NCBI GenBank assembly: GCA_021817915.1
Contig: JAKAFV010000007.1
Location: 1 to 11,260 of the forward strand
DNA: 11,260 nucleotides
Source: a bacterium
Lineage (GTDB): Bacteria; Patescibacteriota; Minisyncoccia; UBA6257; UBA9933
Direction: 5' to 3'
The notes under the pieces are model-generated. The model did not search any database and was not told the DNA's origin. It was given only the letters and a program-made list of their open reading frames with translations. Each line of letters starts with the position of its first letter. The stretch's first letter is position 1. Positions 65 through 11,260 of the stretch are shown piece after piece. A program made the translations under genes and the position numbers.

Positions 65-1411
65 TTATAGCACAAATTCTTCTCCGGCTGAAGGAATAAT
101 CGCGTCAATCGCCAATTCATCTTGCACTTTTTGAGAGAGAAGAAGCATGCCTTCTTCTTCGCCCTGGACGATAAAAACTTTTTTCGCGCTAAAACGCATA
201 GGTCGGAGCCAATCCAAAAGTTGTCGCTGGTCGGCATGCGCGGAATATCCGGCAATTGAACTTATTTTACATTTAACAGAAATTTCTTCGCCGTTAATTT
301 TTACCCATTTTTCTCCATCTAAAATCCGCCTTCCTAAAGAACCATTGACTTGAAAGCCAATGAACAAAATCGCGCTTTTAGGGTCGGGTAAATAACGCAT
401 TTCATGATGCAAGATTCTTCCGCCTTGCGACATTCCCGAGCCGGCGATAATTATTTTGGGCGGAGGAACGCTATTTATTTCTTTTGATTCCTCTGTTGTA
501 AGCGTGGTTTTTAAGCCCGGAAAATTGAATATCGCATCACCCTTTCTTAAAAGCGCGATGGCTTCTTCACGGAAATATTTCGTGTCTTGGGAATATTTTT
601 TATAAACCGAGGTAAGTTTAATGGCTAATGGGCTATCTACAAAAACCGGCGCCTTAGGCACGCGGCCATTTTCAACCAATTCGTTCAATTCAAATAAAAG
701 TTCCTGAGTGCGCTCCATGGCAAAAGCCGGAATCATCAATACCCCGCCCGCCTTAACAGTTTCTTCGATAAAATCTTCGAGCATTTCTTTTCTGGTGCCA
801 AGATTTTCATGCAACTTGCCGCCGTAGGCTGATTCCATTAAAACATAATCGGCGTTTTCTATCGCATCGCCGTCTTTTATAAACGGCGCCGGCGAATTCC
901 CCAAATCTCCAGAAAAAATAACTTTCTTTCCTTCTGAAGAAACCGCGATACAGCTTGAGCCAAGAATGTGGCCGGCATTCAAAAATTCAATATCTAAGTC
1001 ATCAATTTTAAATTTCTCGTGATAGTCAATTTTTTTCCACAAGCCCATTATCCCCGTAATGTCTTCAATATTATAAATTGGCTCTTTGTTTCTATCGCGA
1101 GCTTCTCTGCCTAAAACGTTTTCCGAATCAAGTAAAAGTTCTTCGGCAAAATCTTTAGTCGGCGGAGTTGAAAAAACATCGCCGCGAAAACCAGCCTTGT
1201 AAAGCTGAGGCAAACGGCCAATATGGTCTATATGTGCGTGAGTTATTAAAACCGCCTTGATAGCCTTTGGGTCATACGAAAAAGGTTCGAAATTTATTTT
1301 TTCTAAAAAATTTGAGCCCTGGTTAAGCCCGCAATCGACAAGCACGCTATCGTTTATTAAATAATTAGCGCCAGTAACAGTTTTTGCCCCGCCGCAAAAT
1401 TTAAGTTTCAT
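65..1411 (-). CDS. Beta-CASP metallo-beta-lactamase RNA hydrolase (CPSF73/YSH1-like)
   Basis: This 448-residue protein is a zinc-dependent RNA-processing nuclease of the beta-CASP branch of the metallo-beta-lactamase superfamily. Visible motifs in order: HAHIDH at 58-63 (motif 2), GHILGS with H148 (motif 3), SGDLG with D169 (motif 4), the beta-CASP cap with PAFAMERTQE around 228-237, GSGMSQGGRILHH at 324-336, and GYSAHAD with H392 near the C-terminus, followed by an RMMBL-type tail. All expected metal ligands appear present, so it should be an active cytoplasmic endo- or exonuclease. No N- or C-terminal KH domain is seen, which separates it from archaeal aCPSF1 and fits the shorter bacterial type. 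The start ATG at 1411 gives a typical N-terminus. No Shine-Dalgarno sequence precedes it. The GIY-YIG gene lies 30 bp upstream on the same strand, so the two may be co-transcribed. The exact RNA substrate cannot be told from sequence. Confidence 0.93.
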   Translation of the reverse strand: MKLKFCGGAKTVTGANYLINDSVLVDCGLNQGSNFLEKINFEPFSYDPKAIKAVLITHAHIDHIGRLPQLYKAGFRGDVFSTPPTKDFAEELLLDSENVLGREARDRNKEPIYNIEDITGIMGLWKKIDYHEKFKIDDLDIEFLNAGHILGSSCIAVSSEGKKVIFSGDLGNSPAPFIKDGDAIENADYVLMESAYGGKLHENLGTRKEMLEDFIEETVKAGGVLMIPAFAMERTQELLFELNELVENGRVPKAPVFVDSPLAIKLTSVYKKYSQDTKYFREEAIALLRKGDAIFNFPGLKTTLTTEESKEINSVPPPKIIIAGSGMSQGGRILHHEMRYLPDPKSAILFIGFQVNGSLGRRILDGEKWVKINGEEISVKCKISSIAGYSAHADQRQLLDWLRPMRFSAKKVFIVQGEEEGMLLLSQKVQDELAIDAIIPSAGEEFVL

Positions 1412-1441
1412 ACCCAGTAGAGGAATTTCAAATTGAATTTT

Positions 1442-1726
1442 TCAATATATATCTTTTAAAAATCCTCTTAATCTTAATTTTAAAAATCTACGACCTTGCG
1501 TTGTTTTTAAATAATTTTCTCTTCTCCTTGCATCACATTCATTTATACACGTCTCGGCATAAATCAATACCAACGGTAATCTTGATTTTGTTGAAAAATT
1601 CTTTTTGGCATTATGTTCTTTTAATCTCTGCTTTAAATTTCGCGTATAACCAATATAAAACTTACCATCTTTTTTGCTAAGAAGCACATAAACATAATGC
1701 CATTTTGAAATTCTCGTACTGGGCAT
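1442..1726 (-). CDS. GIY-YIG domain protein (UPF0213/YhbQ-like)
   Basis: This 94-residue protein is a stand-alone GIY-YIG nuclease-fold domain. YVY at 11-13 and YIG at 24-26 form the signature, followed by R34 and H38 in the first helix (LKQRLKEHN) and the candidate metal-binding glutamate E70 in RRREN. The basic C-terminus (QGRRFLKLRLRG) suits nucleic-acid binding. Family members are DNA repair or structure-specific nucleases, but the single-domain UPF0213 group is poorly characterised. The reading frame is open to a GTG at 1762, giving 12 more residues. I chose ATG at 1726 because family members begin close to the GIY strand and because a TATAAT box ends 7 nt before this ATG, inside the longer version. 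It lies 30 bp upstream of the beta-CASP gene on the same strand. Confidence 0.88.
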   Translation of the reverse strand: MPSTRISKWHYVYVLLSKKDGKFYIGYTRNLKQRLKEHNAKKNFSTKSRLPLVLIYAETCINECDARRRENYLKTTQGRRFLKLRLRGFLKDIY

Positions 1727-10063: not shown

Positions 10064-10329
10064 TACTTCTTTAAGCCCAAACTTTTTATCATTGAAGCGT
10101 GGCTCTTAGGATTTGTTTTTGATAAATAGTCCAAAAGTTTTTTTCTTTTTGAAACCATTTTTAAAAGCCCCCTTCTTGAATGATTGTCTTTCGGATGTTT
10201 CTTCAAGTGGTCAACGAGTTCAAGAATTTGCTTGTTCAAAAGAGCCGCCTGAACTTCGTTTGAGCCAGTATCTTTTTCGTGGGTGCGAAAATCTTTTATT
10301 AAATTTTGCTTTTTACGGGTAGTTAACAT
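10063..10329 (-). CDS. rpsO: 30S ribosomal protein S15 (uS15)
   Basis: This 88-residue protein binds the central domain of 16S rRNA and bridges to the 50S subunit. Conserved features are visible: FRTHEKDTGSNEVQAALLNKQI, then LVDHLKKHPKDNHSRRGLLKMVSKRKKLLDYL, including the HxxDxGS and DxHSRRGL motifs that contact rRNA. Length equals the usual 88-89. ATG at 10329 is preceded by a promoter whose -10 box ends 7 nt before it, so there is no room for the structured leader through which S15 represses its own synthesis in several bacteria. It is first in an rpsO-NYN-pnp order and divergent from rpsA. Confidence 0.96.
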   Translation of the reverse strand: MLTTRKKQNLIKDFRTHEKDTGSNEVQAALLNKQILELVDHLKKHPKDNHSRRGLLKMVSKRKKLLDYLSKTNPKSHASMIKSLGLKK

Positions 10330-10336
10330 ATTTCCA

Positions 10337-10365
10337 AGAATAATTTATTTTCATTTATAAGTCAA
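10337..10365 (-). promoter_or_regulatory. rpsO promoter, probably leaderless
   Basis: On the minus strand TTGACT (10360-10365), a 17-bp spacer and TATTCT (10337-10342) are followed after exactly 7 nt by ATG at 10329. Transcription would begin at or beside the start codon. Confidence 0.65.
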
Positions 10366-10382
10366 GATTATCCGTAAATCAC

Positions 10383-10411
10383 TTGACTATTAATAACTTA
10401 CTGATTACTAT
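10383..10411 (+). promoter_or_regulatory. Candidate rpsA promoter
   Basis: TTGACT (10383-10388), a 17-bp spacer and TACTAT (10406-10411) face away from the rpsO promoter; the two -35 boxes are 17 bp apart. A start near 10418 would give a leader of about 144 nt, nearly all of it the folded element that follows. A TATTCT box overlaps at 10409-10414 but has no -35 at normal spacing. Confidence 0.55.
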
Positions 10412-10423
10412 TCTATCTATTAT

Positions 10424-10560
10424 CCCAGTAACACTACTTCAATGTTTCATTTTTACGGATAAAAATGAAAGAGTGGGTTGCTGGGCAAAAGATTAAATTA
10501 AAGACATTATATCCGGCTAATCACGATTTATCGTGATTAAGTTGAAGTAGTGTCACTGGG
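10424..10560. mobile_element. 137-bp inverted-repeat element directly before rpsA (MITE-like or structured leader)
   Basis: The ends are imperfect 19-bp inverted repeats: 10424-10442 pairs with 10542-10560 with a single A/C mismatch (10430 against 10554). TAT flanks both sides (10421-10423 and 10561-10563), as a target duplication would. Inside are an 11-bp hairpin (10445-10455 with 10460-10470, loop CGGA) and a 22-bp palindrome (10518-10539, TAATCACGAT and its complement). No ORF is present. The shape fits a miniature inverted-repeat element. Because it fills the rpsA leader, a cis-acting RNA role is the main alternative, and both may hold. Confidence 0.6.
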
Positions 10561-10561
10561 T

Positions 10562-11260
10562 ATGGTATTAAACGCGACAAAAAAGAATAACTCGTACGTG
10601 GCTCACGCATTGAAAAACGACCCCGATTCCATTCCTTTTTTAAGGGACGGAGAAATCGTTGACGCAAAGCTTATGCAAAAAAACCCGCGCTCGGCATTTT
10701 TTGACTTGGGCAAATTTGGCACGGGCTCGGTTTACGGAGTGGAATTCGCGAATGCCAAATCAATCTTGAAAGAGCTTAAAATCGGCGAAGCGATTTCGGC
10801 GAAAGTTTTGAGCGCTGAAGACGACGAAGGACACGTGGAACTTTCACTCGCCAGCGCCCATCATCAAAAAAACTGGCAGAAGCTTAAAGAAATAAAAGAC
10901 AGCAACGAGCCTATTACGGTAAAAATCATCGGCGCCAATAGCGGAGGCTTGGTTGCGAATGTTAATGAAATCAAAGCCTTTCTTCCGGTTTCCCAGCTCG
11001 CGGGAGAACATTACCCGAGAGTTGATGACGCGGACAAATCAAAAATTCTCGCGGAGCTTAGAAAGCTCGTCGGCGAAGAAATAAAAGTCAGAATATTGGA
11101 TATCAATCCGAGAAACGAAAAATTAATCATTTCTGAAAAAGGCGCTTTTGAAAACGACATCAAAGAGCTTCTTTCCAAATACAACGCGGGAGACATCGTT
11201 GATTGCGTAGTTTCCGGAATTGCCGACTTTGGCGTTTTTGTGAAATTCATAGACAATCCG
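10562..11260 (+). CDS. rpsA: 30S ribosomal protein S1 (bS1), 5' part; runs off the window
   Basis: The frame is open from ATG at 10562 to the window edge, giving 233 residues. S1 is made of repeated OB-fold (S1) domains and helps mRNA bind the 30S subunit. Domain 1 spans about 29-97 (DGEIVDAKL ... FFDLGKFGTGSVYGVEF ... VELSLASA). Domain 2 spans about 115-192 (ITVKIIGANSGGLVANVNEIKAFLPVSQL, with the HYPRVDDADKS insertion and KLIISEK). Domain 3 begins at about 210 (GDIVDCVVSGIADFGVFVKF), the best-conserved S1 motif. ATG at 10562 directly follows the 3' arm of the folded element. No Shine-Dalgarno site lies before it except TGGG, which is buried in that helix. It is the first gene of its strand after the divergent rpsO promoter. 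Confidence 0.93.
   Translation, partial: MVLNATKKNNSYVAHALKNDPDSIPFLRDGEIVDAKLMQKNPRSAFFDLGKFGTGSVYGVEFANAKSILKELKIGEAISAKVLSAEDDEGHVELSLASAHHQKNWQKLKEIKDSNEPITVKIIGANSGGLVANVNEIKAFLPVSQLAGEHYPRVDDADKSKILAELRKLVGEEIKVRILDINPRNEKLIISEKGAFENDIKELLSKYNAGDIVDCVVSGIADFGVFVKFIDNP

Follow-up and report, generated by a model that had tools for sequence, protein, structure and literature searches.

The window analyzed here, 11,260 nucleotides of contig JAKAFV010000007.1 (assembly GCA_021817915.1) from a bacterium of the Patescibacteriota, carries the gene of ribosomal protein S1, rpsA, and directly in front of it a 137-bp element bounded by terminal inverted repeats. A second element in the same window, an intact one of 311 bp, encodes a GIY-YIG endonuclease and occupies the start codon of an MBL/beta-CASP gene (Table 1). 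Based on the comparison of both elements with further copies in the source genome and in related genomes, the short element is very probably a non-autonomous member, resembling a miniature inverted-repeat transposable element (MITE), of a class of small mobile elements whose full form is a GIY-YIG gene between terminal inverted repeats.

The anatomy given in a preliminary description of the rpsA element was confirmed. The 19-bp terminal inverted repeats deviate from perfect pairing by one mismatch, both internal hairpins are perfect, the right end lies one base from the rpsA ATG and, in line with the claim that the element contains no open reading frame (ORF), the longest one lying fully within it comprises 23 amino acids (aa). 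Short terminal inverted repeats around a non-coding interior are found in family A as a whole (see below), as is usual for MITEs.

Table 1. Features of the two elements in the window and of the genes they adjoin.
Feature	Position	Strand	Remark
Non-autonomous 137-bp element, family A	10424..10560	+	9 complete genome copies; rpsA reads away from right end
Left terminal inverted repeat CCCAGTAACACTACTTCAA	10424..10442	+	end comparison
Right terminal inverted repeat TTGAAGTAGTGTCACTGGG	10542..10560	+	18/19 positions complementary to left repeat
Internal hairpin 1	10445..10470	+	10445-10454 pairs perfectly with 10461-10470; compensatory changes among copies (alignment columns 23-46)
Internal hairpin 2, AATCACGATTTATCGTGATT type	10518..10539	+	10518-10526 pairs perfectly with 10531-10539
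Internal end-like sequence (third end copy)	10473..10485	+	paired with left arm in predicted fold
Left flank TAT	10421..10423	+	ATG at same place in 7/9 family A copies
rpsA start codon ATG at right end	10562..10564	+	one base after element; S1 domain, Pfam E=1.9e-12
Intact 311-bp GIY-YIG element	1413..1723	-	on start codon of downstream MBL/beta-CASP gene
GIY-YIG endonuclease ORF, 94 aa	1442..1726	-	in frame from left host ATG (1724-1726); PF01541 E=1.8e-16
Left terminal inverted repeat of GIY-YIG element, CCCAGTACGAGAATTTCAAA	1704..1723	-	end comparison
Right terminal inverted repeat of GIY-YIG element, TTTGAAATTCCTCTACTGGG	1413..1432	-	end comparison
Re-created ATG of MBL/beta-CASP gene (65-1411 -)	1409..1411	-	right end of GIY-YIG element

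Copies in the source genome lie on start codons

The source genome (G000) is a draft of 461,545 bases in 84 contigs with a completeness of 77%. Searching it at the DNA level with the rpsA element yielded eight further full-length copies with 76-84% identity and one end at a contig edge. Searches with the ends only, whose queries contained no ATG, returned 13 complete pairs plus two single ends and, for a second pattern, 12 pairs, which correspond to 16 distinct elements. Together with C26, one end of which was found by search, and the GIY-YIG element of the window, they form a set of 18 elements. The copies fall into end family A (CCCAGTAACACTACTTCAA; nine copies of 137-139 bp), family B (CCCAGTAATTCAACTTCAA; four copies of 233-313 bp and C26, 229 bp long and with a changed right end) and family C (left end CCCAGTAACTCAACTCGAT; three copies of 139-144 bp). 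The preliminary description had proposed looking for dispersed copies with short duplications as a mark of mobility, and these were indeed found.

In all 18 elements the right end lies on the start codon of a gene, in the orientation of that gene; this codon is ATG in 17 cases and GTG in the remaining one (C62). An ATG also stands at the left end of 16 of the 18, meaning that the ATG is duplicated in these, and the consensus anatomy reads ATG-CCCAGT...ACTGGG-(T)ATG or a close variant of it. Within family A, the left ATG adjoins the element directly in 7 of 9 copies and the right ATG follows after 1-2 bases in all nine. The TAT triplets noted earlier on both flanks of the rpsA element are present (10421-10423 and 10561-10563); in the light of the other copies they are best interpreted as what is left of a start-codon site that had been duplicated.

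The genes struck include rpsA, rplY (L25), rplE, rplP, murA and ftsZ as well as those of a penicillin-binding protein, a sugar transferase, an RNase J-like MBL protein, an FKBP isomerase, an M24 peptidase and a PAP2 phosphatase, among others. Names are based on Pfam for 10 of the 18 targets and two more, the rest were assigned by eye; for all ten of the 18 targets submitted, the Pfam family lies in the frame of the right ATG. As a background, 9 of the 51 ATGs in the window that are either non-coding or start codons are starts, with the limits of the coding sequences chosen by hand. At this rate the chance that 17 of 17 ATG sites are start codons is about 1.6e-13. Ribosomal-protein operons can carry several elements, namely at rplP, rplE and the edge of rpsC in the source genome (C27, L060), at rplP, rpsQ and rplE in G001 (C4, L071) and at rpsQ, rplE and rplO in G010 (C8, L087).

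Matches to the ends of families A and B pair within 313 bp, with the exception of the one at the contig edge and the changed partner in C26, and thus no longer insertion sequence (IS) with such ends was found in the source assembly at its completeness of 77%. Nor was a full-size parent of family A found there; the closest one seen is located in G007 (L033, CCCAGTAACATTACTTTGA).

Empty and filled sites in related genomes

The junction of rpmC and rpsQ is empty in the source genome (...taaataaataaaaacATGAAAAG). In G001, which belongs to the same genus and has a matching rpsQ flank, it reads ...taaataaataaaaacATG-147 bp-TATGAAAAG, which is an ATG, a 147-bp element, a T and the duplicated ATG. This pair documents the insertion to the base. 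Orthologues of rplP and rpsQ without an element start at the same codon as those that bear one. In G010 and G019, both of one genus, rpsQ carries an element of a different end family, so that the rpsQ start must have been hit at least twice. Dispersed copies, short target-site duplications and the empty and filled rpsQ site are all features of MITEs, and the mobile-element interpretation of the preliminary description is thereby upheld.

An alternative raised together with it was that the structure is kept in front of rpsA in relatives, which would speak against mobility. The rpsA gene was found in 20 of the 22 family genomes; within 450 bases upstream of it, 18 of the 19 genomes other than the source contain no such element. 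The exception is G010, whose element belongs to another end family, and the rpsA site of G019 from the same genus is empty. As to the suggestion that an insertion would have replaced the native rpsA leader, the insertion anatomy indicates that the leader was instead pushed about 138 nt upstream. Besides, by eye, two loci (L134 and L031) display signs of stacking, in which a second element occupies the ATG that the first had restored.

Full-size elements encode a small GIY-YIG endonuclease

In family B, one copy of 313 bp is intact and codes for a GIY-YIG protein, and four others, 229-237 bp long, terminate in the same 19 bp, apart from one changed end base each in C7 and C26. Two of the four shorter copies retain a GIY-YIG match. 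Comparison of the ends shows shorter copies and the intact copy to be nearly identical at the termini. Repeated hits on one site are likewise shown. The GIY-YIG catalytic domain was recognized with E-values of 1.8e-16 and 2.7e-17 (PF01541), and in full-size relatives (about 280-315 bp) the single long ORF is an endonuclease of about 90 aa. The protein of the window has matches in 52 of 61 genomes, the source included. A search of genome contigs gave two relatives with 45-46% identity, and a search of viral contigs three partial matches. The best relatives of solved structure by sequence are the UPF0213 GIY-YIG proteins 1ywl (E 4.6e-8) and 1zg2 (E 3.7e-6), and the TIGR01453 match stayed below its cut-off (25.8 of 56.05 bits).

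Among the loci opened, an inverted repeat scoring at least 11 surrounds 29 distinct GIY-YIG ORFs, a count without a shuffled control; the best of 20 shuffles in a separate control run reached 9-14, and as scores of 11-14 overlap the shuffles, we relied only on tips of the CCC...GGG type. Sixteen of these were taken as start-codon sites. In nine of the sixteen, the left ATG and the nuclease share a reading frame; the nine include two broken copies and two judged by eye, one of which (L050) is possibly not at a gene start. In unbroken start-codon copies the stop codon of the nuclease lies no more than about 35 nt from the right end or overlaps it, if trimmed arms are allowed for. No Rfam intron match was obtained up to E=1 over positions 10300-10700 or 1350-1800, which argues against group I introns; in the latter range a single miRNA match stayed below the threshold (19.8 of 53 bits).

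Other GIY-YIG ORFs in relatives lie beside tRNA genes (5' ends of tRNA-Ser, 3' ends of tRNAs; L048, L055, L056, L047), and the one in L048 is bounded by clear inverted repeats. Possibly, a branch of the element class is addressed to tRNAs.

Distribution and further target classes

The pattern ATGCCCMGT...ACKGGGTATG was found in 10 of 22 family genomes and 16 of 379 phylum genomes, with up to 20 copies in one genome, and the reversed pattern served as a control without a single match in either set. The fetched loci contain 84 distinct CCC[AC]GT elements: 74 have an ATG at the right end (71 at both ends), one has a GTG and nine lie elsewhere, although the share of 74 in 84 is biased, because many loci were fetched by patterns requiring ATG and T. 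In 69 of the 74, the frame that starts at the right ATG extends over 60 aa or more within the sequence read. By eye, the genes opened in this way include gyrA, gyrB, nusG, gatB, alaS, pheT, rplA, rplF, rpsD, rpsE, rpsP and rplO. The elements are shown to occupy gene start codons in one orientation and to have the start codon duplicated (ATG-CCC[AC]GT...AC[TG]GGG-(T)ATG).

Of 150 genomes of the order, 28 contain a second type of ends, ATGAATCCCGTTA...TAACGGGATG, again with no matches for the reversed pattern. All 30 right ATGs in the loci returned open a frame taken as a gene, of which 26 have at least 60 aa or run off the locus and four have 25-37 aa. As the ATG continues as ATGAA in 29 of the 30 loci, the target of this type is probably ATGAA. 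In three genomes (L186, L188, L196) the gene struck at its start codon is a 25-aa ORF for a basic peptide of the MNKKRKVAKKKHNKKAGKKVVSRYR type.

Elements of a third class, TTGACCCCGT...ACGGGGTTGA, are located at the TTGA of -35-like boxes in 7 of 22 genomes (nine places; no control matches). Over ten distinct elements, the best -10 match at a spacing of 15-19 averages 4.6 of 6 positions; shuffles gave 3.52 (standard deviation 0.26; none of 5000 reached 4.6) and wrong spacings 2.9-4.0. An eleventh element, the second of L046, with a best -10 match of 4 of 6, was removed by the end filter. Two elements of this class display an exact TTGACA-16-TATAAT, one of them before tuf.

Of the nine CCC[AC]GT elements located elsewhere, five lie at TTG(A); a -10-like TAAAAT and a tRNA-like sequence harbour one each, and the other two are those of L036 and L164. 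The -10-like box is split by a CCCCGT element (L076:3428-3564; TAAA-element-TAAAAT) in front of what is, by eye, likely ndk. The 120-bp CCCCGTC...GACGGGG element in L117 (1161-1280) seems by eye to interrupt a tRNA near the anticodon loop; ARAGORN reports no tRNA there. Other hairpin-bearing intergenic repeats are present in the ribosomal operons of L093, L095, L096, L101 and L106; several end near GGTGCTCA..TTTAT and possibly constitute another repeat family.

Fold of the element

The predicted RNA fold of positions 10384-10600 is 5.6 standard deviations more stable than dinucleotide shuffles, none of 200 shuffles being equally stable. An alignment of 15 family A copies, drawn from three genomes, shows a 20-bp end stem and the two hairpins, and 8 of the 34 pairs display a double compensatory change. 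Complementarity of the ends is expected of any such element; it is the changes in hairpin 1 which suggest that the fold itself matters, either in single-stranded DNA or in RNA. The third, internal end-like sequence (around CTGGG) recurs in copies of families A and C and is able to pair with the left arm. In the fold predicted for the window copy, it takes the place of the right arm as the partner of that arm. The idea that an end-to-end stem brings a Shine-Dalgarno sequence close to the right ATG is weak, given this internal pairing and the presence of a Shine-Dalgarno-like tetramer in only 18 of 74 sites (within 20 nt before the last three bases of the left end).

Discussion

Taken together, we consider it reasonably probable that these elements represent a new class of mobile units of about 0.3 kb with terminal inverted repeats, moved by a GIY-YIG nuclease of about 90 aa, with subfamilies addressed to ATG, ATGAA and the TTGA of -35 boxes. 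The duplicated sequence would be the signal itself, so that genes for ribosomal proteins, gyrase and cell division can be hit without loss, and the MITEs would have spread from such units. In the proposed mechanism, the GIY-YIG protein would recognize the ends of the element and introduce a short staggered cut at an ATG target, at ATGAA for the second end type and at the TTGA of -35-like boxes for the third. The element would then be pasted or copied in, filling of the gaps would duplicate the signal, and deleted copies would be moved in trans. The left ATG, which is also in frame with the nuclease in roughly every second GIY-YIG copy, would keep the leader of the host, while the right ATG would restart the host gene. 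With its start codon restored beyond the element, an essential gene could survive the insertion. Candidate routes by which ribosomes may reach the right ATG are reinitiation, folding of the RNA and initiation independent of a Shine-Dalgarno sequence.

Several observations weigh against this interpretation. The spacer before the right ATG is a T in 12 of the 18 source-genome elements and varies in the other six, hence the duplication is not uniform, and the left flank of the rpsA copy itself is TAT instead of ATG. Five of the 74 ATG-side elements open frames below 60 aa, of which one is accounted for by a contig end and one by an arbitrary orientation, and three are unexplained. In 7 of the 16 start-codon GIY-YIG loci the left ATG and the nuclease lie in different frames, which rules out that the nuclease universally uses the ATG of the host. 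G012 has two start-codon and three -35 pattern matches, and G027 (10 contigs, listed as 100% complete) one second-type match, yet neither has a match to the GIY-YIG protein of the window. Finally, movement by the nuclease is something we infer from its association with the elements, and the preference for start codons could be due to survival bias.

A homing-type spread, in which the nuclease breaks the DNA at start codons and repair copies the element via microhomology of the flanking ATGs, without a transposition that joins ends, is a tentative and rather unlikely explanation. GIY-YIG is a homing-endonuclease fold, an ATG lies at or near both ends of most copies, and the junction spacers vary as they would after repair. 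Nevertheless, the elements strike many unrelated genes and not one allelic site, and homing has no need for symmetrical end repeats.

Still less probable is that ordinary MITEs are mobilized by a classical transposase which escaped notice, with sequence-loose insertion (ATG/TTGA) and a start-codon pattern resulting from selection for survival instead of targeting. The terminal repeats, short duplications and shorter derivatives are usual MITE anatomy, a transposase could be missing from an incomplete source genome, and the elements of G012 and G027 occur without a match to the GIY-YIG protein. This explanation is at odds with the lack of a longer IS with family A or B ends in the source assembly and with the nature of the long ORF filling the full-size copies, which is GIY-YIG. 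Survival alone should also have left insertions at non-coding ATGs that are not starts, and the contrast between the window background and the 17 start codons among 17 ATG sites argues against this.

That the element acts as a cis-regulatory leader RNA, be it for rpsA or for genes of translation, is highly improbable and was rejected: the strong fold (z -5.6) and the compensatory changes in 8 of 34 pairs would fit, but nearly all relatives lack the element before rpsA, the single further case having other ends, the same element precedes unrelated genes, Rfam gave no match to E=1 (10300-10700), and an empty site exists at rpsQ. An assembly artefact, conceivable for a draft in 84 contigs, can practically be dismissed, as the same anatomy occurs in G010 (9 contigs) and the second end type in G035 and G027 (10 contigs each), with different flanks each time.

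If the class of GIY-YIG-encoding units is real, its members are among the smallest autonomous mobile elements of bacteria, landing on gene boundaries and duplicating the signal they strike, which is a way to persist in a genome that has hardly any DNA to spare. GIY-YIG would join the enzymes that move DNA, and the abundance of small GIY-YIG genes would be explained in part. Gene starts in such genomes would be easily mis-annotated, and start codons or promoters could be addressed with a naturally occurring insertion system. The element also makes it testable how translation begins downstream of a structured insert of 140 nt.

Comparison with known systems

Like the MITEs of bacterial IS elements, the short copies have terminal inverted repeats, no long ORF, a short target duplication, dispersed locations and larger elements with the same ends. 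They differ in that the larger elements encode a GIY-YIG nuclease and no known transposase, and in their sites, which are gene start codons or -35-like boxes. Ends shared with an element encoding a known transposase, as expected of such MITEs, were not seen for families A and B in the 77% complete assembly, whose intact family B copy encodes GIY-YIG.

I-TevI and the Seg proteins of phage T4 are GIY-YIG homing endonucleases or products of free-standing homing endonuclease genes. The elements share with them the catalytic domain and the nature of a single-ORF selfish element that spares the host gene. In contrast, a protein of about 90 aa has no room for a separate DNA-binding domain, the ends are inverted repeats, there are many sites per genome, and no known intron was found. 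As these sites, judged from the genome sequences, are many and unrelated instead of one allelic position, the class of the window would not be a usual homing endonuclease gene. The UPF0213 proteins 1ywl and 1zg2, the closest solved structures by sequence, are not known as mobile elements.

The mobile bypassing elements (byps) of yeast mitochondria and the insert of T4 gene 60 are structured inserts inside coding sequence that are skipped during elongation. They resemble the present elements as a structured insert between a repeated codon that leaves the protein intact, but here the insert precedes the first codon of the gene.

In the literature consulted, mostly openings of abstracts with few subscription papers or preprints, there is no description of GIY-YIG elements targeting start codons or -35 boxes. 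For bacteria of the candidate phyla radiation (CPR), the main text of PMC11270868 describes GIY-YIG genes in rRNA-gene insertions that match neither group I nor group II introns, along with many ORF-less insertions below 200 bp, and doubts homing as their route of spread; this main text contains none of the terms "inverted repeat", "start codon" or "duplication". With GIY-YIG genes in non-intron insertions and short ORF-less forms alike, these CPR rRNA-gene insertions are, by that main text, the nearest report found.
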